From positions 1 through 44,601 of the forward strand of contig NZ_JAEULP010000045.1 in assembly GCF_016792905.1 (NCBI RefSeq): DNA of 44,601 nucleotides, read 5' to 3'. The translations under genes were made by a program, and so were the position numbers. Source of the DNA: Tabrizicola sp. (GTDB lineage: Bacteria > Pseudomonadota > Alphaproteobacteria > Rhodobacterales > Rhodobacteraceae). Under the pieces are notes generated by a model. The model saw only the letters and a program-made list of their open reading frames with translations, searched no databases and was not told where the DNA came from. Shown here in pieces: positions 15,168 through 27,107 of this stretch (positions within the stretch are counted from its first letter, which is position 1; each line of letters opens with the position of its first letter).

Positions 15168-15262
15168 CTGCCTCCCCCAAAGTCGCTTTCCGCCCCCAAC
15201 CCGTCCCCCCGGCTTGGAAACCCCGCCCCGCCCCGCTACTCTCCCACCCCAAAGGAGACCCC

Positions 15263-15673
15263 ATGCCCCGCGCCGAGACCCTCGCCCTGATCCGCCGCTA
15301 TTACGACGCCTTCAATGCGGGCGACCCCGAGGGCATGCTCGCCTGCCTGACCGAGGATATCGAGCACCGGGTGAATGAGGGCGGCCACCGGCTCGGCAAG
15401 GCCAGGTTCCGCGAGTTCTGTGGCCACATGGGGGTCAGCTACCGCGAGCAGCTGAAGGACCTGACGATCTTCGCGACCGACGACGGCACCCGCGGGGCCG
15501 CCGAATTCGTCGTCCACGGCGCGTACCTGAAGACCGACCCCGGCCTGCCCGAAGCGAGGGGCCAGACCTACATCCTCCCCGCCGGGGGGTTCTTCGAGAC
15601 CCGCGACGGTCTCATTTCCCGCATCACCACCTTCTACAACCTGAACGACTGGATCGCGCAGGTCCAGGCATGA
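15263..15673 (+). CDS. SnoaL / ketosteroid-isomerase-like protein (NTF2 fold)
   Basis: 136 aa from ATG 15263, preceded by AAAGGAGACCCC. The pattern 'LIRRYYDAFNAGDPEGMLACLTEDIEHRVNEGG' followed by beta strands ending 'RDGLISRITTFYNLNDW' is a typical NTF2-like domain of the SnoaL/ketosteroid isomerase group. These small enzymes or binding proteins have diverse substrates and none can be assigned here. The gene overlaps the next acetyltransferase by ATGA (15670-15673), so the pair is probably a two-gene operon. Confidence 0.83.
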   Translation: MPRAETLALIRRYYDAFNAGDPEGMLACLTEDIEHRVNEGGHRLGKARFREFCGHMGVSYREQLKDLTIFATDDGTRGAAEFVVHGAYLKTDPGLPEARGQTYILPAGGFFETRDGLISRITTFYNLNDWIAQVQA

Positions 15674-16266
15674 ACATCGACGACATCGACGTCCGCGCCC
15701 TGAAAGGCCCCGATCTGGAAGCGGCGCTTGACGGCGTCGCCCAGCTTCGCATCACCGTGTTCCGCGACTGGCCCTACCTCTACGACGGCTCACCGGAATA
15801 TGAGCGAGAGTATCTCGCCACCTACCGCGACAACCCCGGCGCGCTTCTGGTGGGGGCGTTCCACGACGGCCAGCTGATCGGTGCCTCGACCTCCACCCCG
15901 ATGGAGGACCACGCCCGTGAATTCGCCGCGCCCTTCCGCGACCTCGGCATTCCGCCAGAGAAGATCCTCTACGGGGCCGAGTCCGTCCTCCTCCGCCCCT
16001 ACCGCGGCATCGGCCTCGGCCACCGCTTCATCGACCTGCGCGAAGCCCATGCCCGGGCCTTGGGCCGCACTCATGTCGCCTTCTGCTCGGTCATCCGGCC
16101 AAGCGACCACCCGGCCCGGCCCGCCGTCTATCGGTCCAACGACTCCTTCTGGCGCGGCCGGGGCTACCGGACCCTGCCGGGTGTCGTGGCACGGTTCAGT
16201 TGGAAGGACCTTGGCGACACGGTGGAAACCGAGAAGCCGCTCCAGTTCTGGATGCGCGAGCTGTGA
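15670..16266 (+). CDS. GNAT family N-acetyltransferase
   Basis: 198 aa. The GNAT core is visible: 'LRITVFRDWPYLYDGSPEYEREYLATY' (alpha1-alpha2), 'ALLVGAFHDGQLIGASTSTPM' (beta2-beta4), then 'ESVLLRPYRGIGLGHRFIDLREAHARALG', where RGIGLG is the acetyl-CoA pyrophosphate loop (motif A R-x-x-G-x-G/A). The substrate is not predictable. It overlaps the SnoaL-like gene and is followed directly by a hairpin terminator, so it ends the operon. Confidence 0.85.
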   Translation: MNIDDIDVRALKGPDLEAALDGVAQLRITVFRDWPYLYDGSPEYEREYLATYRDNPGALLVGAFHDGQLIGASTSTPMEDHAREFAAPFRDLGIPPEKILYGAESVLLRPYRGIGLGHRFIDLREAHARALGRTHVAFCSVIRPSDHPARPAVYRSNDSFWRGRGYRTLPGVVARFSWKDLGDTVETEKPLQFWMREL

Positions 16267-16322: not shown

Positions 16323-17768
16323 TCAGTCCAGGTTCATCCCCATCTTCGCAAAGCGCGCCGGGTCCGAGGACTTCAGCCGCTGGGCCAGCAGGAAACCGAC
16401 AACGCCGCCCGCCGGGATCAACGCGGGCAGGAGCCAGCTGAGCGAGCCGCCCGTCGTCCCGGTGAGATCGCCGTAGTTGATGAAGATGTAGACGAAAAGC
16501 GCCGCCATGATCAGCCCGGCGATGGCCGGAAGGATCCTGGTCGACAGGGGCGAACCCCCGCCCTGTTTCGAGAAGAAGGCAATCACCGACAGCGAGGTGA
16601 TGGCCATCATCCCGATCACGCCCAGGGTGCCGATCTGGCTGATCCAGGTGAACATGTTCAGGATCGGGTCGAGGCCCAGGCCTGCGAAAATCGCGAGGAC
16701 GATCACCGCAAGCACCGTCTGCACGACCGAGCCGATATGCGGGCTTTGATGCGCATCATGGGTGCGGCCGAAAGCTTCCGGCAACAGTCCGTCACGGCCC
16801 GCGACATAGGAATAGCGGGCGATGTAGTTGTGGAAGGCCGACAGCGCGGCGAAGAGACTGGAGACCAGCAGAAGCCCCGCGATCATCGAGATGGTCGGAT
16901 TGGTGTAGGTCTCGGCCAGGATGAAGAAATGCGCGGTCGGGTCGGGCAGGCCGCCGATGGTTTCCAGAAGCTTGTCGGCCCCGGTTCCCGCGATCATCAG
17001 CCAGGTGGTGAAGACGAAGAAGATGCCGATCATCAGGATCGACAGGTAGGTCGCGCGCGGGATGGTCTTCGCCGGGTCCTTGGCCTCTTCGCCATAGATC
17101 GTGGTCGCCTCGATCCCGATGAAGGAGCCCAGGCAGAACAGGATCGCAGCGGTCAGCGAACCGGACGTCAGCGCCGAGAAGTCGAAGATGTTGACCGCAA
17201 GGCCCTTGCCCTCGGCCCCGCCCGCGCCAAGGATGGCGAAGTCGACGATGAAAACGATCAGGTATTCCAGGCCGACCAGCACCACCATGACCTTGGCCGA
17301 CAGGTCCACCTGCCGGTAGCCTAGGATGCCGACCAGCGCGATGGCGATCAGGCTGTAGACCCACCAGGGCATGGTGATGCCGAAGCCGCCGAACACCCCC
17401 GCAGCGACGCCGCCCAGAAGCCCGATCAGGCCGAACTGCATGGTGTTGTAGGCGACCAGCGCCATGATCGAAACCGCGCCGCCCCAACTGCCGCCAAGCC
17501 CCCGTGCGGCATAGGCGTAGAAGGCGCCGGCGTTGATGACATGGCGGCTCATCGCGACATAGCCGGCGGCGAAGGCCAGCATGACCAGCGTGAGCAGGAT
17601 GAAGGTCAGCGGGATGCCGGTGCCGTTCCCCAGAAGGAACGCGAGCGGCATGGCCCCGGCCACCCCGGTCAGGGGTGCGGCGGCCGAGATCACCATGAAG
17701 GTGACGGCGACCAGCCCCAGCGAATTGCGTCGCAGCCGGTTCGGCCCGATTTCGGTGAATTCAGACAT
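16323..17768 (-). CDS. APC family permease, last gene of the NicX-like catabolic operon
   Basis: 481 aa, about 12 membrane spans. The opening 'LRRNSLGLVAVTFMVISAAAPLTGVAGAMPLAF' and the loop 'ATTIYGEEAKDPAKTIPRATYLSILMIG' (about 222-250) are standard for amino acid and amine APC permeases. It probably imports the compound degraded by the upstream genes. It starts 83 bp after the flavin reductase stop with a strong GGAGGGAAC ribosome-binding site. The gap contains a hairpin, so its expression may be set partly independently. The substrate is unknown; a zwitterionic amine or amino-acid-like molecule is the reasonable guess. Confidence 0.85.
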   Translation of the reverse strand: MSEFTEIGPNRLRRNSLGLVAVTFMVISAAAPLTGVAGAMPLAFLLGNGTGIPLTFILLTLVMLAFAAGYVAMSRHVINAGAFYAYAARGLGGSWGGAVSIMALVAYNTMQFGLIGLLGGVAAGVFGGFGITMPWWVYSLIAIALVGILGYRQVDLSAKVMVVLVGLEYLIVFIVDFAILGAGGAEGKGLAVNIFDFSALTSGSLTAAILFCLGSFIGIEATTIYGEEAKDPAKTIPRATYLSILMIGIFFVFTTWLMIAGTGADKLLETIGGLPDPTAHFFILAETYTNPTISMIAGLLLVSSLFAALSAFHNYIARYSYVAGRDGLLPEAFGRTHDAHQSPHIGSVVQTVLAVIVLAIFAGLGLDPILNMFTWISQIGTLGVIGMMAITSLSVIAFFSKQGGGSPLSTRILPAIAGLIMAALFVYIFINYGDLTGTTGGSLSWLLPALIPAGGVVGFLLAQRLKSSDPARFAKMGMNLD

Positions 17769-17788
17769 GTTCCCTCCGTGTTGAGCGC

Positions 17789-17808
17789 GCCCGGTCTTGT
17801 TGCCGGGC
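17789..17808 (-). promoter_or_regulatory. intercistronic hairpin in front of the APC permease
   Basis: GCCCGG (17789-17794) and CCGGGC (17803-17808) form a 6-bp stem with an 8-nt loop, in the leader between the flavin reductase and permease genes. In the minus-strand transcript it is followed by non-T sequence and the permease ribosome-binding site, so an mRNA processing or stability element is more likely than a terminator. Confidence 0.35.
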
Positions 17809-17851
17809 CCTTTTCCTGCGGTCGTTGACTCGCCGCAAATTACTTAACAGT

Positions 17852-18367
17852 TTAACTATCTCCGGTGAGATGTATAGCCCTTCTGTAGGCCCGCTGCCCG
17901 TATAGCAGCGCCGACGGGTTGTCGGAGAGCCGCACCGAGGCCACGCGACCGACGAGGATGTGATGGGTTTCCCACAGAAGCGCGGTGGCGAGACGGCATT
18001 CAAAGACGGCCGTCGCGCCGGACAGGACGGGCTGGCCGATGTCGCCCTTTTCCCAGGCCACGCGATCAAAGCGTTCGGCGCGGTCCGAAGCGCTGCGCCC
18101 GGCAAAGAGGTTGGAAACCTCCTGCTGGTGCTCGGCCAGAAGATTGGCGCAGAAGGCACGGTTCTTCAGGATCGCGGCGGCGGCGGGCGACTGGTGGTGG
18201 ATGCACAGCAGCAGCGAGGGTTGCTCGCCATCCGCCGAGACCGAAGTCAGCGAGGAGACCGTGACCCCCGCGCGCCCGCCCTCGCCATCGGTGGTGGCGA
18301 CGGCGACGAAGGTGGCCGCGCGGCTCATCCCTTCCATGAAGGCGGTGCGAAGATCGGCGGCGGTCAT
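17852..18367 (-). CDS. flavin reductase family protein (HpaC/RutF-like)
   Basis: 171 aa. 'FMEGMSRAATFVAVATTDGEGGRAGVTVSSLTSVSADGEQPSLLLCIHHQSPAAAAILKNRAFCANLLAEHQQEVSNLFAG' is the FMN-binding split-barrel of NAD(P)H:flavin reductases that feed reduced flavin to two-component monooxygenases. The start overlaps the stop of the glutamine synthetase-like gene (ATG at 18370 or 18367; the second is better spaced from GGGTG). In this operon the likely partner is the acyl-CoA-dehydrogenase-fold protein at 21675-23018. That partnership is inference from context. The family assignment is firm. Confidence 0.87.
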   Translation of the reverse strand: MTAADLRTAFMEGMSRAATFVAVATTDGEGGRAGVTVSSLTSVSADGEQPSLLLCIHHQSPAAAAILKNRAFCANLLAEHQQEVSNLFAGRSASDRAERFDRVAWEKGDIGQPVLSGATAVFECRLATALLWETHHILVGRVASVRLSDNPSALLYGQRAYRRAIHLTGDS

Positions 18368-18371
18368 CATG

Positions 18372-19715
18372 TCACCCAAGATCAAAAAAGCGTTGCAATT
18401 CGACGTCCGGCACCTTGCGGCGGAATTCGTCGTGCTGAGAGTCGCGCGTCGCCGTGAAACCGTCAACAAAGCGCGTGCCCAGCCAGTCGCGCGCAAAGTC
18501 CGACCCGCGCAGGCGGCTGATCGCCTCGGGCATGGAGCGGGCGAAGTCGCGGGCGGGTTCCTGGGAATAGCCCGACCCGACGACTTCCGGCTCCGGCTCG
18601 ATCTTGTTAAGGATCCCCGCGATCCCTGCGGCGAGGGTGGCAGCGGTGGTCAGGTAGGGGTTTGTATCGGCCCCCGGCAGCCGGTTTTCCACCCGCAAGG
18701 ACCCCGCATCATGGCCCACCAGCCGGAAGCAGGTGGTGCGGTTCTCGTAGCCCCAGGTCAGGCCGGGGGGCGCGAAGGTGCCCGGCGCAAAGCGGCGATA
18801 GCTGTTCACCGTCGGCTGGAAGATCAGGGTCATGTCGCCGATATACGCCTGCAACCCGCCGAGAAAATGGCGGAAGGTCTGGCTGACGCCGTTCTTCTGT
18901 GCCTCGTCCCAGAACAGCGGCTTGCCCGCCTTGTCCTTCAGGCTGATGTGCAGGTGGATCGACTGGCTGTCGGCCTGTTCGTTCCAGCGGGGCATGAAGG
19001 TGACGGACCTGCCCTGCCGCAGGGCAAGGGCGCGCAGGAAATTCTTCAAGAGCACCAGCTGGTCGGCGGGCTCAAGTCCCCCACCAGCGGCGATGCAGCA
19101 TTCCATGAAGCCGCCGCCGATCTCTTCATGCATCTTGGCCAGATCGATCCGCAGCGGCTCGCAGATGGCGGAAAGCGCCTCGTACCATTCCGTCTGCAGG
19201 GCCTGGTAGATGATCAGGTCATGGCTGGCATGCGGTGTCGCGGTCTGGAGATTACGATACCCCTTGGCCCGAGCGCTTTCCGGGGTTTCGTCGAAAAGGG
19301 TGTACTCCAGCTCCATCCCGTATTTCGGAAAGAAGCCCGCCTCGGCGGCGCGGGCCAGGACACGGGTCAGGATCGAGCGCGGGCAAAGCTCGGCAGAGGC
19401 GCCGGTGAAGTTCGACAGGACCAAGAGGTCATGGCCGGGCTTCGACCAGGGCAGGCGCCGGGCGCTGGTAGGATCAATGCGCAGGGGATCGTCGTGGAAA
19501 TCGCCCGCGTCGTCGTTCACGCCGGGCAGGTTCAGGTGGACATCGGTCGGGTCAAGCGCCAGTTGCGCCGGGGCCATGCCCATGCCGTTTTTCGCAATCC
19601 CTTTCAGGGACGCGGCCGAGACCATCTGCCCGCGCAAAAGGCCGTTGGTATCGGCCATCGCCACCGTGGCGAAACGGCTGGCGGGATCGGCGAGGAAGTC
19701 GTCAATCATGGTCAT
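18372..19715 (-). CDS. glutamine synthetase family protein (PuuA/GlnT-like gamma-glutamyl ligase)
   Basis: 447 aa. It has glutamine synthetase fold hallmarks: metal-binding ExE in 'GMELEYTLFDE' (E135, E137), 'HEEIGGGFME' (about 196-205), 'HLHISLKDKAG' (254-264) and the C-terminal 'SLRVENRLPGADTNPYLTTAATLAAGI'. The divergent N-terminus and the lack of the GlnA adenylylation loop place it with GS-like ligases such as PuuA, GlnT, IpuC and aniline-type ligases, which join glutamate to amines. Its place inside a catabolic operon suggests amine activation or capture of released ammonia rather than housekeeping nitrogen assimilation. ATG 19715 overlaps the TetR stop by 4 nt. Confidence 0.85.
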   Translation of the reverse strand: MTMIDDFLADPASRFATVAMADTNGLLRGQMVSAASLKGIAKNGMGMAPAQLALDPTDVHLNLPGVNDDAGDFHDDPLRIDPTSARRLPWSKPGHDLLVLSNFTGASAELCPRSILTRVLARAAEAGFFPKYGMELEYTLFDETPESARAKGYRNLQTATPHASHDLIIYQALQTEWYEALSAICEPLRIDLAKMHEEIGGGFMECCIAAGGGLEPADQLVLLKNFLRALALRQGRSVTFMPRWNEQADSQSIHLHISLKDKAGKPLFWDEAQKNGVSQTFRHFLGGLQAYIGDMTLIFQPTVNSYRRFAPGTFAPPGLTWGYENRTTCFRLVGHDAGSLRVENRLPGADTNPYLTTAATLAAGIAGILNKIEPEPEVVGSGYSQEPARDFARSMPEAISRLRGSDFARDWLGTRFVDGFTATRDSQHDEFRRKVPDVELQRFFDLG

Positions 19716-20386
19716 CTGTCACCTGTTGGGAGGGTCAATAGCGCGGCCAGTTGCTCCAGGTCCTGCGCGGGGGTGGTTGAATAGGCCTTGAGGAACACCT
19801 TGAGGCCGTTGGCGATGTAGCGGGTCAGCGTCTCGCGGTCGGGCACCGCGTCGGGCATGTACAGCGCCTGCGTCCGGGGGGCGGAGAGGATCAGGCCCCA
19901 GAGATCCTGCGCGGCAAGCTCGGCCTCGTCGAAGGCCAGCCGCCCCGCGTCGCGCTGGGTTTCCAGGTAGCGCATGATCCCGCGCAAGAGGTGGTCGGGT
20001 CCGCTGGCCTGGTAGGCCCGGCCGATCTCGGGGAAGCGGCCGACCTCGCCGATGATCAGGCGGGCGAGCGATAGCAGATCCGGACGCATGACGGTGTCGG
20101 CATAGGCCCAGGCGAAGGTCAGAAGATCGGCGACCATCCCCGACGCCGAGGGATGCTCGAAGACATCGAGCATCAGGTCGCGTTTGCCAAGCATCATCGC
20201 CTGGAAGAGCGATTCCTTCGACGGGAAGTAGGAATAGAGCGTGGGCTTCGTCACCCCGGCCTCGGCGGCGACGGCGTCCATCGACGCGCCGGAATAGCCG
20301 GATGCCGCAAAGACCGTCAGCGCCGCGTCGAGGATCTGGCGCTCGCGGTTCAGCCGGTTCTGCTGGCGGCGGGGAAGGTCGTTCAC
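19712..20386 (-). CDS. TetR family transcriptional regulator
   Basis: 224 aa. The N-terminal HTH is textbook: 'ILDAALTVFAASGYSGASMDAVAAEAGVTKPTLYSYFPSKESLFQAMM' (about 18-66), followed by a helical ligand domain of about 150 residues. It lies inside the operon, overlapping its upstream neighbour (ATGA at 20383-20386) and its downstream neighbour (19712-19715). It should therefore be autoregulated with the pathway genes. The probable operator is the palindrome at 24130-24141 before the first gene. The ligand would be the pathway substrate or an intermediate. Confidence 0.92.
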   Translation of the reverse strand: MNDLPRRQQNRLNRERQILDAALTVFAASGYSGASMDAVAAEAGVTKPTLYSYFPSKESLFQAMMLGKRDLMLDVFEHPSASGMVADLLTFAWAYADTVMRPDLLSLARLIIGEVGRFPEIGRAYQASGPDHLLRGIMRYLETQRDAGRLAFDEAELAAQDLWGLILSAPRTQALYMPDAVPDRETLTRYIANGLKVFLKAYSTTPAQDLEQLAALLTLPTGDR

Positions 20387-21675
20387 GGCAGCCTGCGCAG
20401 GAAGCTGAGAAGGTGGCGGTTGTAGGCCTCTGGCTTCTCGACGTTGCAGACATGACCCGCGCCGGGGATGACCTCGAAGCGGACGTCGGGTCGGGGGGCG
20501 GCGTCCCAGATACGGCCCGCGACGGCGCGGATCTCGGCGGGGGGCGCGAGGCGGTCATGTTCGCCGGTCATCATCAGGACGGGCATGGTGAGCTTGGCGA
20601 AGTCGAAGCGTTCCAGCGGGTTGGTGAAACAGCTCAGGGCGTCGCGGTAGGTGGCGGCGGGGATCGCGGCCATGCTGTCGAAGAGCTGTTGCCGGGTTTC
20701 GTGCGAGGCATCCGGCCCGGCCAGGACCTTGACCACCGCAGGCGCAAAGTCGGCAGGAACCTGGCCTGCGTCCATCGGCACTTCACGGCTGACGCGGAAG
20801 GCCTCCCGTTCGTCGGGGCCCGCTTCGGACATGCCGGTGCAACCGCCGGAGAGGACGAGGCCCGCCAGCATCTCGGGGTGGCGCATGGCGAAGGAGGTGG
20901 CGATCCAAGACCCGTAGGAGAGGCCGACCAGTACCAGCCGTTTCGCCCCGAGCCTTTCGGCGACGCGCAGGATATCGGCGCAATAGTCATCGACCGTGGA
21001 TTGCCGGGGCCCGAGCGTGCTGTCGCCATAGCCTCGCAGGTCAAGAGCGGCGGCCTGCATGGTTGAACCTGCGGCTTGCAGCTGCGGCAGCCAATTGGAG
21101 CGCCCGCCGCCGATACCGTGCAGGAAGAGGCAGAGGGTGCCAGGGGATTGGGGTTGGCGGCCTTCGGTGACGGTCAAGGCAAGCCGGGGCAAGTCGTCGA
21201 AGATCAGCGTCTCGACCGGCGCGGGAGTAGTCTTTTCCGCAGGCTGCACGTTCCTCGCGGTCGCTGACGCCAAAGCCGCGATCCCGGCCTCGAACACGGC
21301 CTTCGTCCCGTCGCAAATCCCGGTCAGCCGCGTGGCAGGGGCGCGAACGGTTGCGGTCCAGTTGACCACCGACCCGCCCACCTCGGCCGACGACACGGTG
21401 ATGCGGGCATCATAGGCCTCGCAATCGCGGATGCCCTCAAGATGCGTGTAGCCAAGCACCCGGTCGCTGTCCGAGAGATAGGTCTGCTGTTCGCGGTAGA
21501 CGGTATCCTCGCCCGCGACGGTGAAGGTCCGGATGCGGGCACCTTGCGGCCCCCGCTCCTCGGTCATCGTCGCGATCCACGGATGCCAGGCGCCGCAGAA
21601 GTCGCGGACGACTGACCACACCACCTCGGGTGCAAGCGGCACAAGGCCCCGGACCTGCACCACCTCACGCCCCAT
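20383..21675 (-). CDS. SRPBCC::alpha/beta-hydrolase fusion protein
   Basis: 430 aa, two domains in one chain. Residues 1-142 form a polyketide-cyclase-like SRPBCC domain ('VPLAPEVVWSVVRDFCGAWHPWIATM', 'VNWTATVRAP'). Residues about 155-430 form an alpha/beta hydrolase with oxyanion loop HGIGG (186-190), nucleophile Ser253 in GLSYGS, acid Asp374 (GEHD) and His408 (GAGHV). Beside a NicX-like dioxygenase, the hydrolase half is a candidate for hydrolysing the ring-cleavage product, as the alpha/beta hydrolase NicD deformylates N-formylmaleamate. The SRPBCC half may bind a hydrophobic substrate. TGATG and ATGA overlaps link it to both neighbours. Confidence 0.85.
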   Translation of the reverse strand: MGREVVQVRGLVPLAPEVVWSVVRDFCGAWHPWIATMTEERGPQGARIRTFTVAGEDTVYREQQTYLSDSDRVLGYTHLEGIRDCEAYDARITVSSAEVGGSVVNWTATVRAPATRLTGICDGTKAVFEAGIAALASATARNVQPAEKTTPAPVETLIFDDLPRLALTVTEGRQPQSPGTLCLFLHGIGGGRSNWLPQLQAAGSTMQAAALDLRGYGDSTLGPRQSTVDDYCADILRVAERLGAKRLVLVGLSYGSWIATSFAMRHPEMLAGLVLSGGCTGMSEAGPDEREAFRVSREVPMDAGQVPADFAPAVVKVLAGPDASHETRQQLFDSMAAIPAATYRDALSCFTNPLERFDFAKLTMPVLMMTGEHDRLAPPAEIRAVAGRIWDAAPRPDVRFEVIPGAGHVCNVEKPEAYNRHLLSFLRRLP

Positions 21676-23018
21676 CAGCGCAGCATCCGCAGGGCGCCCG
21701 AGTCCCCGCGCCAGAGCGAGTTCCTCGCCCCGCCCTCGTCGCCGGGGGCATGGTCCAGCTCGTTCATCTCGTAAAGCGCGAGGACGCCGATATAGTCCTC
21801 CATGATCTCGGAGGTATAGGGCAGCATCAGCGCCCCGCAGCGACTGTCGCGGTACATGCGTTCCAGCGGCAGCGACTTCAGCATCGACTGCCCGCCGCAG
21901 GTGCGGATCGCCAAGGCGGTGATCTCCTGCACGCCTTCCATCACGTTGTATTGCGCGGCATACATCCGCATCACCTCGCCCTTCGACGGCATCCCTTTGG
22001 CCTCGGAAAACGCCTGCCACCAGAGCGCCCGCATGTTCGCCAGCCGGGCATACATCTTCGACACTGCCACCCGCTTGGTCGCATACATCCGCCGGTCGAT
22101 CGGCGGCTGGCCCGGGACCCGTCCCTGCAAATAGGCCAGCGTAAAGTCATAGGCCCCCTGCGCCACGCCCATGTAGGTGGGGCTGAGAGTGGCCATCATA
22201 TGCGGCCAGTTCGGCAGCGTCTTGCCGAAGATGCCCTTCGGCATCAGCAGGTCCTCCTCGGTGACGAAAACGTCTTTCAGGATCAGGTCGCGGCTGTTCG
22301 TGCCCCGCATTCCCAGCGGGTCCCAGTCGCCCTTCACCGTCAGGCCCGGTGCATCCTTGTGGACGACGAACAGCATCGTGTCCTCGTGCCGGGGTTCCTG
22401 GCCCTCGAATACCTCGGTGCAGACGATGGTGTAATAGTCGCAGTATCCCGCCAGCGAGGCGAATTTCTTGAAGCCGGTGATCTTCCAGCCGCCCTCCACC
22501 GGGCGGGCCTGGGTCTGGTTCGGCTTCGAGGTCCAGTTCTGCCCTCCCTCCGAGATCGGCTGTGAATAGATAGCGCGTTCGGTCATCGCCCGGGTGAACT
22601 GCTTGGCCCGCAAGGGGGCAAAGGCCGCCTTTTCCTCGGCCGACAGGTTCGGCATGTCATACATGAACCGCGACCAGGCCATCGAGGAGTTGTGCATATT
22701 GAACGTGAGCGCCGTCGCCCCGCAATACTTGGCGATCTCGGCGCCCACCATGGCGTATTCGCCCATGGAGAAGCCCCAGCCGCCGAATTCCTGCGGGATC
22801 GACAGACCCAGAAAGCCGTTGTCGGCGAGGTCCTTGTAATTCTCAACCGGGAACGAGGCATCGTCGTCCACCCCCTTGGCGCGGGCGGCAAAGACCGGGC
22901 CAAGCTCGTTGATCTTCGCCATGGCGGCGGCGACCTCGGGGCGGACGCCGCTCATGTCATAGTAATCCGCAGGCGCGCTCATCGGCAGGACGGCGGGGAT
23001 CGGGGACTGGTCGGTCAT
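21675..23018 (-). CDS. acyl-CoA-dehydrogenase-fold flavoprotein, possibly a reduced-flavin monooxygenase
   Basis: 447 aa with ACAD architecture. It has an N-terminal helical domain (to about 150), a middle beta domain ('YSQPISEGGQNWTSKPNQTQARPVEGGWKITGFKKFASLAG', 151-191) and a C-terminal helical domain ('ERMYRDSR', 386-393). The segment that normally carries the catalytic base, IYEGTSEI in medium-chain-type enzymes, reads MLPYTSEI (398-405) with no Glu. With a flavin reductase in the operon, a DszC/HpaH-like oxygenase role is possible. Isovaleryl- and glutaryl-CoA-type enzymes place the base elsewhere, so a dehydrogenase cannot be excluded. No CoA ligase is nearby. Start ATG 23018 overlaps the previous stop. 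Confidence 0.8.
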   Translation of the reverse strand: MTDQSPIPAVLPMSAPADYYDMSGVRPEVAAAMAKINELGPVFAARAKGVDDDASFPVENYKDLADNGFLGLSIPQEFGGWGFSMGEYAMVGAEIAKYCGATALTFNMHNSSMAWSRFMYDMPNLSAEEKAAFAPLRAKQFTRAMTERAIYSQPISEGGQNWTSKPNQTQARPVEGGWKITGFKKFASLAGYCDYYTIVCTEVFEGQEPRHEDTMLFVVHKDAPGLTVKGDWDPLGMRGTNSRDLILKDVFVTEEDLLMPKGIFGKTLPNWPHMMATLSPTYMGVAQGAYDFTLAYLQGRVPGQPPIDRRMYATKRVAVSKMYARLANMRALWWQAFSEAKGMPSKGEVMRMYAAQYNVMEGVQEITALAIRTCGGQSMLKSLPLERMYRDSRCGALMLPYTSEIMEDYIGVLALYEMNELDHAPGDEGGARNSLWRGDSGALRMLR

Positions 23019-24070
23019 CAGGCAAGCTCTCCTTGCAGAACGCCGTCCTTGACGACGACGCGCCCGTCGAGGGCGATGGTGCAGTTGCGCATCGGAAGGT
23101 CGAAATGGCCGAGCGTGTAGCGCCCGGCATACTGGTTGGCCCCGGTGGACCACAGGAAGCTCCCGGCAATGGCCCGGAACTCCACCGCCTGCATGTCGCG
23201 CTTGTCGTACATGGCGGCGGAAACCCATTTCGCGCCGTGGTTCATGCCCCAGCCGACATGGCTGAGCCCATAGGCGTTGCGGTCGTTCCAGGCTTCCATG
23301 TATTCGCGCAGGTGCAGCGCGTCGATGCCGTCGCCTTTGATCGCGGTGACGAAGTCGTTCTCAATGGTAAAGTCGATGCGGCTGGTCAGGAAGGTCTTGA
23401 ACGTCAGGTTCATGTCGCCCACGTCCATCACCACGCGGCCGTTCACCGCGTCCTTGCCGGGGAAGGCCAGGCACAGCCCGGCCGGCCAGTGCGCCACCGC
23501 GCCCGGCTTGGTACCGAAACCCGCCGTGCCGCCGCAGGGCGCGCCGCGCAGGTCAACCGTCAGGTCGGTGCCGATGGCCGATGTCACCCGCATCTCCGCC
23601 GCCTCGCGCAGCATCTGGATGCCGATCTGCAACTTCACGTCGTCCTCGGCCTTCGGCTCGGTCCGCTCAAGGATTTCCGGGTGTTCGTTGGTGATGACTA
23701 GCAGGCGGGTGCGCCCGGCATCCTCGATCTCGGGCCATTCGGGGGCATGGATCAGCCCCTCGACCGTGCAGTCCACGATCACCTCGACCAGCTTCAGCGC
23801 CTCGACCACCGCGCGGTTTCCGGCGATGGCCCAGCTGGTGCCGGTGGACTTCACCGGGACCGGGGCCGACTGCGCGGGCGTCGGCATCTGGATGTGGAAG
23901 CTTTCCGCCCCGAGGTCATACCCCGCGAGCTCGCACAGATGCACCAGAACGGGCCGCGACTGGGTTTCGCTGATGATCGCGATCTTCGTGCCCTTGCCGA
24001 TCCCGTTCAGCGCCAAGACCCGGCGGAAGGCGGCAAGCCATTTCCCCTCGATCCGTTCCTGCAACATCAA
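23018..24070 (-). CDS. NicX-like 2,5-dihydroxypyridine 5,6-dioxygenase family protein
   Basis: 350 aa, the same length as NicX of Pseudomonas putida as I recall it. Shared features include 'AVAHWPAGLCLAFP' (191-204), 'DVGDMNLTFKTFL' (216-228), 'LREYMEAWNDRNAYGLSHVGWGMNHGAKW' (254-282) and 'GHFDLPMRNC' (321-330). His271, His322 and Asp324 correspond to the Fe(II)-binding His/His/Asp set proposed for NicX. NicX is a mononuclear iron enzyme of the peptidase-M29-like fold that opens 2,5-dihydroxypyridine to N-formylmaleamate. Database names such as 'leucyl aminopeptidase' are possible mislabels of this fold. It is the first gene of the operon. The exact substrate is not proven. Confidence 0.8.
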   Translation of the reverse strand: MMLQERIEGKWLAAFRRVLALNGIGKGTKIAIISETQSRPVLVHLCELAGYDLGAESFHIQMPTPAQSAPVPVKSTGTSWAIAGNRAVVEALKLVEVIVDCTVEGLIHAPEWPEIEDAGRTRLLVITNEHPEILERTEPKAEDDVKLQIGIQMLREAAEMRVTSAIGTDLTVDLRGAPCGGTAGFGTKPGAVAHWPAGLCLAFPGKDAVNGRVVMDVGDMNLTFKTFLTSRIDFTIENDFVTAIKGDGIDALHLREYMEAWNDRNAYGLSHVGWGMNHGAKWVSAAMYDKRDMQAVEFRAIAGSFLWSTGANQYAGRYTLGHFDLPMRNCTIALDGRVVVKDGVLQGELA

Positions 24071-24129
24071 CCCCCTCCTGACCCCAGTGCATTGCCGGTG
24101 CGACGATTCGCCCCATCGGCAAATTGCTT

Positions 24130-24170
24130 TACTGATCAGTATAGTTTTTCGGAGTGAGGCCGTCTGTCAA
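24130..24170 (-). promoter_or_regulatory. candidate promoter and TetR operator of the NicX-like operon
   Basis: A perfect 12-bp palindrome TACTGATCAGTA (24130-24141) lies 60 bp upstream of the first gene. On the minus strand it overlaps a -10-like TATACT. A TTGACA box is read at 24165-24170. The 21-nt gap between TTGACA and TATACT is long, so the precise promoter elements are uncertain. The palindrome is the best operator candidate for the TetR protein encoded in the operon. Confidence 0.55.
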
Positions 24171-24187: not shown

Positions 24188-24610
24188 TCAGTTTTTCGTT
24201 GTGCTGCAATGATTTGCCGCAACCCTTCCCCCAAGATCGTCGAGAATCGGGCAGTCCGGACGGGCGTCTCCGGCGCAGGCATGGACCAGATGCTCCAGCG
24301 CCGCCTTCATCTCCATCATCTCGCGGATGCGGGTTTCCAGCGCTTCGATCTGCCCTTCGGCAAGCCGTTTCACGTCGGCACTCGCCCGCTCCCGGTCGCG
24401 CCACAGCGCCAAGAGGTCGCCGACCTTTTCCATCGGAAAGCCGAGGTCGCGGGCCCGGCGGACGAAGCGCAGGACCTGCACTTCCTTCGGCCCATAGGTG
24501 CGGTAGCCCGACCCCGTGCGCCCGGCGGGCGGGATCAGTCCGGTCTCCTCGTAGTAGCGGATCATCTTCGCCGACACACCCGAGGCACGGGCGGCTTCGC
24601 CGATGTTCAT
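24188..24610 (-). CDS. cueR: Cu(I)-responsive MerR-family regulator
   Basis: 140 aa. The MerR HTH '[40 protein letters not shown]' is followed by a dimerisation helix and the metal loop C112-x7-C120 ('HACAGDARPDCPIL'). Counted from ATG 24610, the cysteines have the numbers I recall for E. coli CueR. CueR activates copper-export genes when it binds Cu(I). The start overlaps the copA stop (TGATG; ATG 24613 is the alternative), so cueR is the second gene of the copA operon. A fitting operator lies upstream of copA. Confidence 0.92.
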   Translation of the reverse strand: MNIGEAARASGVSAKMIRYYEETGLIPPAGRTGSGYRTYGPKEVQVLRFVRRARDLGFPMEKVGDLLALWRDRERASADVKRLAEGQIEALETRIREMMEMKAALEHLVHACAGDARPDCPILDDLGGRVAANHCSTTKN

Positions 24611-27045
24611 CATGCGCGGGCTCCATAGCGTTTCAGCCGCAGGGCGTTGGTGAGGACGAAGACCGAGGACATCGCCATCGCGCCCGCCGCCAGCACCGGG
24701 GACAGCAGGATGCCGAAGGCCGGATACAGCACACCAGCGGCGACCGGGATCAAGGCGGCGTTGTAGGCGAAGGCCCAGAACAGGTTCTGCCGGATGTTCC
24801 GCATCGTCGCGCGGGACAGGCCGATGGCGTCGGCCAGTGCGGGCAGGCGGCCCGAGACCAGCACCACATCCGCCGCCTCGATGGCGATATCGGTGCCGGT
24901 GCCCATGGCGATGCCGACATCCGCCTCGGCCAGAGCGGGCGCGTCGTTGATCCCGTCGCCCGCGAAGGCCAGCGCGCCTTGCGCCTTCAGCTTGTGCAGC
25001 GCCTCGACCTTGCCCTCGGGCGTGACCTCGGCCACCACCTCGTCGATGCCAAGGTCGCGCGCGATGGCCCGCGCCGTGCGGGCATTGTCGCCCGAGATCA
25101 TGGCTAGCCTCAGCCCCAGCGCCTTCAGCGCCGCAATCGCTTGCGGCGTGGTCGGTTTCACCGTATCCGCCACCGCCAGCAGCGCCACTGCCATGCCGTC
25201 CCGCGCGGCATAGATCGGGCTTTCGCCCCGGTCAGCCAGCCGCTCGGCCTCGGCAATGAAGGCCACGATGTCCACGCCCCGCTTGCCCATCTCGTGCGCG
25301 GACCCCAGCGCGATTTCCGACCCGCCGACCCGCGCCGAGACGCCGTGACCCGGCTTGGCAAGGAACCCCTCGACGGCAGGCAAGGCCATCCCCTCCGCCG
25401 CTGCAACGATGGCCCGCGCCACGGGATGCTCCGACTGCGCCTCGACCGCAGCGAGGACCGGCAGCAGCGCATCCTTCGTCTCCCCCCTTGCGGGCTGGAA
25501 AGTGGTCAGCACCGGCTTGCCCTCAGTCAGCGTCCCGGTCTTGTCGAAGGCCACGACCTGCACGCCTTGCAGCGCCTGCAACGCCTCGCCCTTGCGGAAC
25601 AGGACGCCCAGTTCTGCCCCCCTCCCCGTGCCCACAAGGATCGAAACCGGCGTCGCTAGCCCCATTGCGCAGGGGCAGGCGATGATCAGGACGGCCACCC
25701 CGTTGACCAGCGCCATCGGCAGCGCCGGTGCAGACCCAAAGACCAGCCAGGCCAGGAAGGTCAGCGCCGCGACAGCCATCACCGCCGGGACGAACCACAG
25801 CGTCACCTTGTCAACCAGCGCCTGGATCGGCAGCTTGCCGCCCTGCGCAGCCTCGACCATGCGGATGATCCGCGACAGCATCGTGTCGGCGCCGACCGCC
25901 ACCGCCTCCATCACCAGCGCCCCGGTCTGGTTCACCGTGCCGCCGATCACCCGGTCGTCCGCATGCTTTTCCACCGGCAGAGGTTCACCTGTCACCATCG
26001 ACTCATCGATCCAGCTCGTTCCTTCCGCCACCCGCCCATCCACCGGCACCCGTTCCCCCGGCCGCAACTCCAGAAGATCGCCGGGGCGCAGCTCGGCCAC
26101 CGACACATCCCGCACCTGCCCCTCGCGCCGCAGATGCGCCAGGGCCGGTTGCAGCCCCACCAGCCGCTCGATGGCGCGCGAGGACCGACCCTTTGCCCGC
26201 GCCTCCAAGAGCCGCCCGAGCAGGATCAGCGTCACGATCATCGCCGCCGCCTCAAAATAGACCGCGACAGAACCGGGAGGCAGCAGCCCGGGCAGGAAGG
26301 TCGCCAGCGTCGAATAGACCCAGGCTGCGCCAGAACCGACGGCCACCAGCGACGACATGTCCGGCGCACCCTTCACCAGCGCCGGGATGCCCTTGACGAA
26401 GAACCGGCGCCCCGGCCCCGCCAGCACCAGCGTCGTCAGAGCGAACTGGATCAGCCAGCTCGTCCCCTGCCCGATGGTCATCATCACCCAGTGGTGGAAA
26501 GACGGGCTCATGTGGCCACCCATCTCCAGCACGAAGACCGGCAGGGTCAACAGAGCCGCCAGGACCAGATCGCGTGTCAGCCCTTCGGCCTCGCGTTCGC
26601 GGCGATGGGCGGGTGTTTCGGCATCCCTCTCCGCAACCCGCGCGTCATACCCCGCGCCCTTGATCGCAGCGACGAGGGCAGAGGCATCGACCATCCCTTC
26701 GACGCGCGCGCTTTCGGTTGCGAGGTTCACATGGGCGACGGAAACTCCCGGCACCGCCTTCAGGGCGCGTTCCACCCGGGCCACGCAGGAGGCACAGGTC
26801 ATACCGTCGATGGACAATTCCTGCGTGCGCAACGGGACTGCGTAGCCCGCTGCAGCGACCGCGCGGATCAGTGCGTCAGCGGGTGCGATACCTTTGATTT
26901 CAGCACTTTCCGTGGCCAGATTGACGGCAGCGGATGAAACCCCGGGAACGGCTTTCAAGGCCCGTTCGACACGACCCGTGCAGGACGCGCAGGTCATCCC
27001 CTCGATAGGTAACGAAAGTGTGGTTTCCGTTGGAGATAAGGTCAT
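24610..27045 (-). CDS. copA: Cu(I)-exporting P1B-type ATPase
   Basis: 811 aa. Two N-terminal heavy-metal-associated domains carry MTCASC (C19/C22 and C84/C87). The actuator domain has TGE (352-354), the membrane metal site is CPC (457-459, '[11 protein letters not shown]'), the phosphorylation site is D501 in DKTGT, and '[10 protein letters not shown]' forms the hinge near the C-terminus. CPC with paired MxCxxC domains indicates Cu(I)/Ag(I) export from the cytoplasm. I chose ATG 27045 because AAGGAAG precedes it with suitable spacing and it starts the first HMA domain properly. An upstream in-frame start at 27093 would lie inside the CueR operator. Confidence 0.96.
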
Positions 27046-27076
27046 GGTCCAGTCTTCCTTGGCCGGGGACCATCTG

Positions 27077-27107
27077 CATATGGGGGTTCCCATGATGGGA
27101 AGGTCAA
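27077..27107 (-). promoter_or_regulatory. CueR-type promoter/operator of copA-cueR
   Basis: On the minus strand -35 TTGACC (27102-27107) and -10 CATATG (27077-27082) are separated by 19 bp, the over-long spacer typical of MerR-family activated promoters. The spacer carries the dyad TTCCCA-TCA-TGGGAA (27087-27101). Its position just upstream of copA, with cueR in the operon, makes Cu(I)-dependent activation the natural reading. Confidence 0.85.

Follow-up and report, generated by a model that had tools for sequence, protein, structure and literature searches.

A conserved seven-gene operon of Tabrizicola sp. encoding a NicX-like, predicted ring-cleaving dioxygenase with an altered substrate site

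In the nic (maleamate) pathway, an alpha/beta hydrolase acts on the product of ring cleavage by the dioxygenase NicX, and a maleamate amidase and a maleate isomerase belong to the same operon. Here we describe seven minus-strand genes built around a NicX-like protein, which we call NicXL, on a contig of Tabrizicola sp. (NZ_JAEULP010000045.1, assembly GCF_016792905.1; the window, that is, the whole stretch analysed, comprises 44,601 nt). NicXL is followed by an acyl-CoA-dehydrogenase-fold flavoprotein (ACAD), a fusion of an SRPBCC domain with an alpha/beta hydrolase, a TetR-type regulator, a glutamine-synthetase-like ligase (GSL), a flavin reductase (FR) and an APC-family permease. NicX of Pseudomonas putida KT2440, for which a structure is available (7cn3), binds its iron through His265, Ser302, His318 and Asp320 and holds its substrate 2,5-dihydroxypyridine by His105, Glu177 and His189 (PMC7910607); that report describes activity for this compound only.

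The seven genes are a conserved and apparently autonomous operon. On balance, we favour the view that it serves the catabolism of an N-containing (hetero)aromatic compound under repression by TetR and induction by the substrate; this compound would be imported, hydroxylated, cleaved by a NicX-type reaction and hydrolysed.

NicXL and the conservation of its operon

NicXL matches 7cn3 over residues 14–343 (E 9.9e-58), and no Pfam or NCBIfam model, including that of the M29 peptidases, matches it at E≤0.001. The four iron ligands and the equivalents of Arg293 and His105 are kept in all aligned sequences of the NicXL clade (the window's protein with L021–L039, as well as 19 regions of L186–L205), and His189 is likewise kept in the window's NicXL. 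At the position of Glu177, in contrast, the window clade has Thr and other members have Val, Ile or Gly, with Glu in no aligned member, so that the His105-Glu177-His189 network is not intact; the residues around the lost glutamate are small (Gly-Gly-Thr in the window clade). Since Glu177 holds 2,5-dihydroxypyridine in NicX, these alignments suggest that the clade has likely kept its iron chemistry while its substrate has changed, and that the substrate of NicXL is probably not 2,5-dihydroxypyridine. A first-pass annotation of this DNA had proposed a NicX-type enzyme and, as an option beside a branched pathway, a different N-containing substrate; at the level of sequence, the former is borne out by the match to 7cn3 with all four ligands in place, and the latter gains support from the loss of Glu177 throughout the aligned clade.

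In a tree of 61 chosen NicXL sequences, in which the software flags L043, L044, L039 and L195 as long branches, L040–L044 form one group (100/99) apart from the 56 other sequences. L040–L042, of the same family, keep Glu177 and have Phe at the His105 position, where L043 and L044 instead have Gln; L044 also lacks equivalents of Ser302 and His189. A further subclass with another pocket may be represented by L198, L200 and L201: their NicXL proteins carry Arg at the position of NicX Val175 and Tyr at that of His189, and a class A aromatic hydroxylase accompanies them.

Scanning genome contigs for NicXL yielded 196 relatives, and the 80 best were retained; for counting synteny, eight loci with less than 6.5 kb downstream were dropped, leaving 72. 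Hosts of the retained relatives include Rhodobacterales, Mesorhizobium, Rhizobium, Shinella, Sulfitobacter, Phaeobacter and a SAR116 cell. Gene models in the relatives are our own picks of open reading frames, which are partly over-long or missed, and distant regions were therefore rechecked by tblastn. ACAD and the SRPBCC-hydrolase are present in all 72 evaluable loci, TetR in 70, GSL in 68 and FR in 63; the first six genes are all present in 63 loci, with identical order in 63/63. The permease is found as well in 47 of 61 otherwise complete loci with enough sequence. The first-pass annotation had treated the seven genes as one set and had named a lack of joint conservation as grounds for refutation; the fixed order of six of them supports conserved co-occurrence, so that this refutation does not hold; the set is looser than proposed inasmuch as the permease is variable and GSL and FR are dispensable, both being missing from 8 of 85 loci. 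Among 149 genomes of the window's family, ten encode the NicXL core (at least 68% identity) and six a GSL orthologue (E≤1e-90), all six being among the ten (∼1.5e-8, hypergeometric). More widely, NicXL matches at E≤1e-85 occur in 25 of 385 genomes of the class, and ACAD matches at E≤1e-100 in 18 of 398 genomes of the phylum.

All seven genes are also found in four plasmid loci (Aminobacter, Ensifer, Sinorhizobium and Shinella). The operon of L022, on the Ensifer plasmid, sits among transposase and toxin-antitoxin genes, and that of L123, on a Sulfitobacter contig, directly adjoins repABC genes, which suggests that the operon is transferred by plasmids.

Regulation, partner enzymes and gene layout

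Operator candidates were scored in 86 loci having a TetR gene, NicXL at 60% or more and at least 200 bp of upstream sequence. In 65 of them, the palindrome CTTWACT-N4-AGTWAAG (at most one mismatch) occurs in the 160 bp preceding NicXL, and in 57 of these 65 it begins 53–67 bp before the NicXL start. In 1.69 Mb of loci there are 66 such palindromes, the extra one being located in L096, ∼175 bp upstream of NicXL. The host genome (3.79 Mb, 92.9% complete) holds a single such place, namely the window's own site, and two further places with two mismatches, fewer than with a reversed-pattern control; no palindrome was found upstream of the permease gene in the 55 loci scored. Conservation of the palindrome upstream of NicXL and its single occurrence in the host genome lead us to infer that TetR would act as a dedicated repressor controlling this operon alone, with the palindrome as its predicted operator. 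A scan for promoters and terminators yielded nothing above shuffled sequences.

Acyl-CoA dehydrogenases read YEGTSEI at the catalytic-base motif. The 21 aligned ACADs (L038, with a stop codon, was left out) instead read LP[YFW]T, the window's protein having LPYTSEI, and none has the MCAD-type Glu; hence, the usual dehydrogenase base is missing. The best sequence matches of ACAD in the PDB are 5gj7 and 5z8t, the latter titled flavin-containing monooxygenase. In L198, L200 and L201, ACAD is absent from the available stretch (which ends soon after in L201), and the class A aromatic hydroxylase beside NicXL comprises FAD_binding_3 and Rng_hyd_C in the two examined; L198 and L201 retain the hydrolase. 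Furthermore, a flavin reductase gene lies just divergent of NicXL in L194, L199, L203 and L204. Taken together, loss of the dehydrogenase base, linkage to flavin reductases and the exchange for a class A hydroxylase indicate that ACAD is probably a ring hydroxylase, with FR as the reductase of a two-component system. FR is absent from all eight loci without GSL and from five more. In Aminobacter (L021:17704–18882), the flavin reductase of the operon carries a LysR substrate-binding domain as its fusion partner, Pfam recognising both parts, and 12 further loci, e.g. of Mesorhizobium and Rhizobium, have a member of the same cluster. As for the SRPBCC-hydrolase fusion, its catalytic triad is intact, and hydrolases of distant relatives match its hydrolase part only.

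When aligned to solved glutamine synthetases (GS), GSL exhibits the motifs which serve metal, ATP and glutamate binding in that family, yet it stays below all NCBIfam cut-offs. The window clade comprises 31 of 61 tree rows (100/100); GSL is encoded in each of its two main branches and absent from eight rows. In a set of 20 regions, taken from 19 distant relatives plus L205, a member of the window clade, acyl-CoA ligase genes are found near NicXL in 13. Most distant relatives have such a ligase in the place that GSL takes in the window clade, which amounts to a ligase exchange. GSL relatives (56–57%) in Sagittula and Novosphingobium adjoin a class I GATase and a P450; in L032 a GATase gene directly follows FR, while none is present in the window operon. 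Sets of GS, P450 and GATase genes also lie near NicXL in L061, L079, L112 and L114, and L031 has GS and P450; a second GS-like ligase with P450 (and GATase) represents a possible second amine-oxidising module. According to the simplest reading, GSL may be an amine-tagging gamma-glutamyl ligase, but one that the core evidently does not require. The first-pass annotation is upheld in placing a GS-like ligase and flavin chemistry in the operon.

It had likewise located all seven genes correctly on the minus strand (Table 1), even though its boundary at 24070 has to be moved, since NicXL most likely starts at ATG 24067 rather than at TTG 24070 (orthologues begin ML[QRP]E..EGKW). Its statement that most genes overlap by 1–4 nt holds for four of six junctions: in gene order, overlaps of 1, 1, 4 and 4 nt are followed by a 1-nt gap (GSL/FR) and an 83-nt gap (FR/APC). 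Pfam assigns every gene except NicXL (ACAD domains, Polyketide_cyc2 with Abhydrolase, TetR, Gln-synt_C, Flavin_Reduct and AA_permease). The operon is immediately preceded, on its own strand, by genes for a CueR regulator and a copper-translocating P-type ATPase (24188–27093, above NCBIfam cut-offs), which also adjoin NicXL in L045, L046 and L066–L068, with more distant copies near L119. On the other side, SnoaL-like (TIGR02096) and GNAT genes (15254–16266) are convergent with the permease gene and also flank the operon in L045, L046 and L066.

Table 1. Predicted features of the NicXL operon (window coordinates)
Feature	Position	Strand	Basis
TetR operator candidate, palindrome CTTWACT-N4-AGTWAAG	24127..24144		here CTATACTGATCAGTAAAG on the - strand, 1 mismatch
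NicXL, NicX-like non-heme Fe(II) ring-cleaving dioxygenase (predicted), distinct subclass, Glu177 lost	23018..24067	-	7cn3 match, residue conservation
ACAD-fold flavoprotein, probable two-component ring hydroxylase	21675..23018	-	Pfam, PDB matches, no MCAD-type Glu, hydroxylase swap
SRPBCC-alpha/beta hydrolase fusion, probably acting on the ring-cleavage product as an N-acyl/N-formyl (or C-C) hydrolase	20383..21675	-	
TetR/AefR-like repressor (predicted), within the operon	19712..20386	-	Pfam TetR_N + TetR_C_7; operator conservation
GSL, GS-like ligase, probable gamma-glutamyl-amine ligase	18372..19715	-	Gln-synt_C 272 bits; GS motifs
FR, short-chain flavin reductase, RutF/HpaC type	17852..18370	-	Flavin_Reduct 120 bits
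APC-family permease, variable member	16323..17768	-	Pfam AA_permease

Proposed pathway and its alternatives

In the pathway that we favour, the permease would import the substrate, and ACAD, using flavin reduced by FR, would hydroxylate the ring, as suggested by its lost dehydrogenase base, the linked reductases and the hydroxylase swap. NicXL, by homology and ligand conservation a putative Fe(II) dioxygenase, would then open the ring next to the hydroxyl group. The SRPBCC-hydrolase, with its intact triad and by analogy with the succession of NicX and NicD, would remove a formyl or acyl group or split the product. GSL may gamma-glutamylate a primary amine, either to tag the substrate or after release of the amine, which is the least certain step, while TetR would repress the operon until the substrate induces it. 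One may go further and speculate, with considerable reserve, that this is a new class of ring-cleavage pathway: the NicX-fold Fe(II) dioxygenase, no longer bound to pyridone recognition, would act on a non-pyridone ring that ACAD, as a monooxygenase, has hydroxylated, and the activation by an acyl-CoA ligase found in most sister loci would have given way in this clade to gamma-glutamyl tagging by GSL, the ring chemistry remaining unswapped.

Several observations weigh against this picture. (i) For the ligase step, GSL is absent along with FR from the eight loci mentioned above, and the NicXL-core genomes G134, G145, G056 and G123 lack a GSL orthologue (E≤1e-90); GSL can thus not be required for the core reaction. 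(ii) For the hydroxylase, ACAD scores higher with the FadE16 dehydrogenase model (114.5 bits) than with HsaA (70 bits), both far under cut-off, true dehydrogenases tie with monooxygenases (Z-score) in a fold search, and distant ACAD relatives pair with a CoA ligase, so that a CoA-thioester substrate would also fit. (iii) Within the available stretches, L200 has no hydrolase and L195 and L191 have no ACAD, and the His189 position is Tyr in L198, L200 and L201. (iv) No operator match was found in 21 of the 86 scored loci. (v) Among the ten NicXL-core genomes of the family, gentisate dioxygenase occurs in three and an aryl-CoA ligase in six (52 of 149 overall), albeit in 4/4 with a complete operon; a link between aryl-CoA ligase and the operon is therefore possible but not strict.

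Gentisate dioxygenase is encoded in 26 of the 84 loci with at least 4.5 kb upstream, mostly in line upstream of NicXL, and is accompanied by an FAH-family hydrolase and partly by a nitrilase and a second flavin reductase (in L064, the dioxygenase scores 562 bits to 3bu7 and the nitrilase 355 bits to NIT4, 6i00). The window's genome carries, on contig C69 (L129:6775–12574), an operon of GntR, gentisate dioxygenase, FAH, nitrilase and flavin reductase genes; a RutA-like luciferase-type monooxygenase gene is divergent to it, and ABC-transporter-like genes follow. Since contig C69 is devoid of the TetR motif at two or fewer mismatches, and since G104 and G121 have the NicXL operon but no gentisate dioxygenase (E≤1e-80), we rejected this module as a part of the operon and treat it as a separate, often clustered pathway.

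An aromatic amine or a carbocyclic compound is an unlikely substrate class. In that case, GSL would produce a gamma-glutamyl-arylamide, a reaction performed by GS-like proteins when aniline is degraded, ACAD and FR would hydroxylate it, and the ring cleaved by NicXL would be carbocyclic or fused rather than a pyridine. That Glu177, which holds the pyridone, is lost amid small residues is consistent with this proposal, as are the GATase and P450 partners of GSL relatives and a series of neighbouring genes, that is, tryptophan 2,3-dioxygenase near L024, L118 and L124, a gene of the benzoate-CoA-ligase family close to 11 loci, the gentisate dioxygenase just described, and salicylyl-CoA 5-hydroxylase near L186 (above cut-off) with members of its cluster near L194, L202 and L205. 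Yet GSL is dispensable, no lower aromatic pathway co-occurs strictly, and NicX is reported to act only on 2,5-dihydroxypyridine (PMC7910607). A supposed kynurenine formamidase beside L024 was discarded, the NCBIfam assignment being to the hormone-sensitive-lipase family.

It is distinctly improbable that the operon is that of the homarine (N-methylpicolinate) pathway of 2026 and hence not new. An N-methylglutamate skeleton would then result from hydroxylation, NicX-type cleavage between C5 and C6 and deformylation, and the carbon count of such a cleavage and deformylation would fit. A 2026 paper citing the homarine pathway assigns N-methylglutamate dehydrogenase a part in homarine catabolism. 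NicXL relatives are moreover found in Sulfitobacter, Phaeobacter and SAR116, and glutamate-synthase-type genes, presumably encoding N-methylglutamate synthase, lie near L028 and L123. However, GSL would be left with no clear role, and a synthase-type gene is close in two of ten NicXL-core genomes, and the window's genome gives no such match (E≤1e-150). Family-wide, such a gene is present in 14 of 149 genomes (among those with the NicXL core, in G134, G056 and, at 55%, G146), and we set this link aside as not discriminating. The homarine operon is reportedly named homABCDER, which five enzymes and one regulator would match; this name places the regulator last, whereas TetR stands fourth here. 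Literature searches, which covered few subscription papers, returned no relevant report on the seven-gene set. The first-pass label 'undescribed' agrees with that outcome but is not established, since the operon might be that of the homarine pathway, which poses the chief threat to its novelty.

That the operon encodes the standard maleamate pathway for 2,5-dihydroxypyridine, its genes being shuffled, is very improbable. Such a pathway would account for the homology to NicX and for an Amdase-fold gene, possibly a maleate isomerase, beside relatives of the operon in L084 and L088, but Glu177 is lost, the NicXL clade stands apart from the loci keeping this residue, and the operon encodes neither amidase nor isomerase. 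The absence of these two enzymes, as originally noted, thus holds for the operon itself, but has to be qualified in view of the nitrilases near relatives and the Amdase-fold gene in two loci; the label 'maleate isomerase' for the latter was dropped, as Pfam gives Amdase only. Least credible of all is an amino-acid operon that cleaves no ring and combines an M29-type peptidase with a glutamine synthetase and an acyl-CoA dehydrogenase. Public annotation does read 'peptidase M29' and 'acyl-CoA dehydrogenase family protein', but NicXL matches no M29 model at the threshold given above, its NicX iron site is invariant, and ACAD lacks the dehydrogenase base.

Comparison with known systems

NicXL is homologous to NicX along almost its entire length and retains the four iron ligands as well as Arg293, His105 and His189; with the nic pathway the operon shares the juxtaposition of hydroxylase, dioxygenase and alpha/beta hydrolase. 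The operon differs from them in that Glu177 is replaced, the hydrolase is fused to an SRPBCC domain, a GS-like ligase is added, TetR and APC genes are included, the presumed hydroxylase has the ACAD fold where the nic pathway uses the NicC type, and the amidase and the isomerase are lacking.

Two-component flavin monooxygenases of the ACAD fold (HsaAB, DszC, nitrososynthases; 5z8t) resemble the ACAD/FR pair in fold, in the separate short flavin reductase and in the absence of the usual catalytic Glu, but scores to all named models are low (e.g., HsaA, 70 bits versus a cut-off of 450 bits). GSL, for its part, carries the catalytic-domain motifs for metal, ATP and glutamate of the GS-family gamma-glutamyl-amine ligases PuuA and GmaS, a group to which TdnQ and AtdA1 of aniline pathways also belong; unlike PuuA and GmaS, it is below all NCBIfam cut-offs, and the GATase partner is missing from the window operon though present in L032. 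The homarine pathway of 2026, published in Nat Microbiol, possibly has the same gene count and ring chemistry.

Correcting the annotation 'peptidase M29' is thus of some importance, because it hides a probable ring-cleavage pathway. It also raises the question of what other NicX-like enzymes cleave beyond the one substrate reported for NicX. NicXL represents a large sister clade of NicX in many Alphaproteobacteria, in which the iron site of NicX is kept, its substrate residue is lost, and the gene is embedded in a compact operon with a candidate operator of its own.

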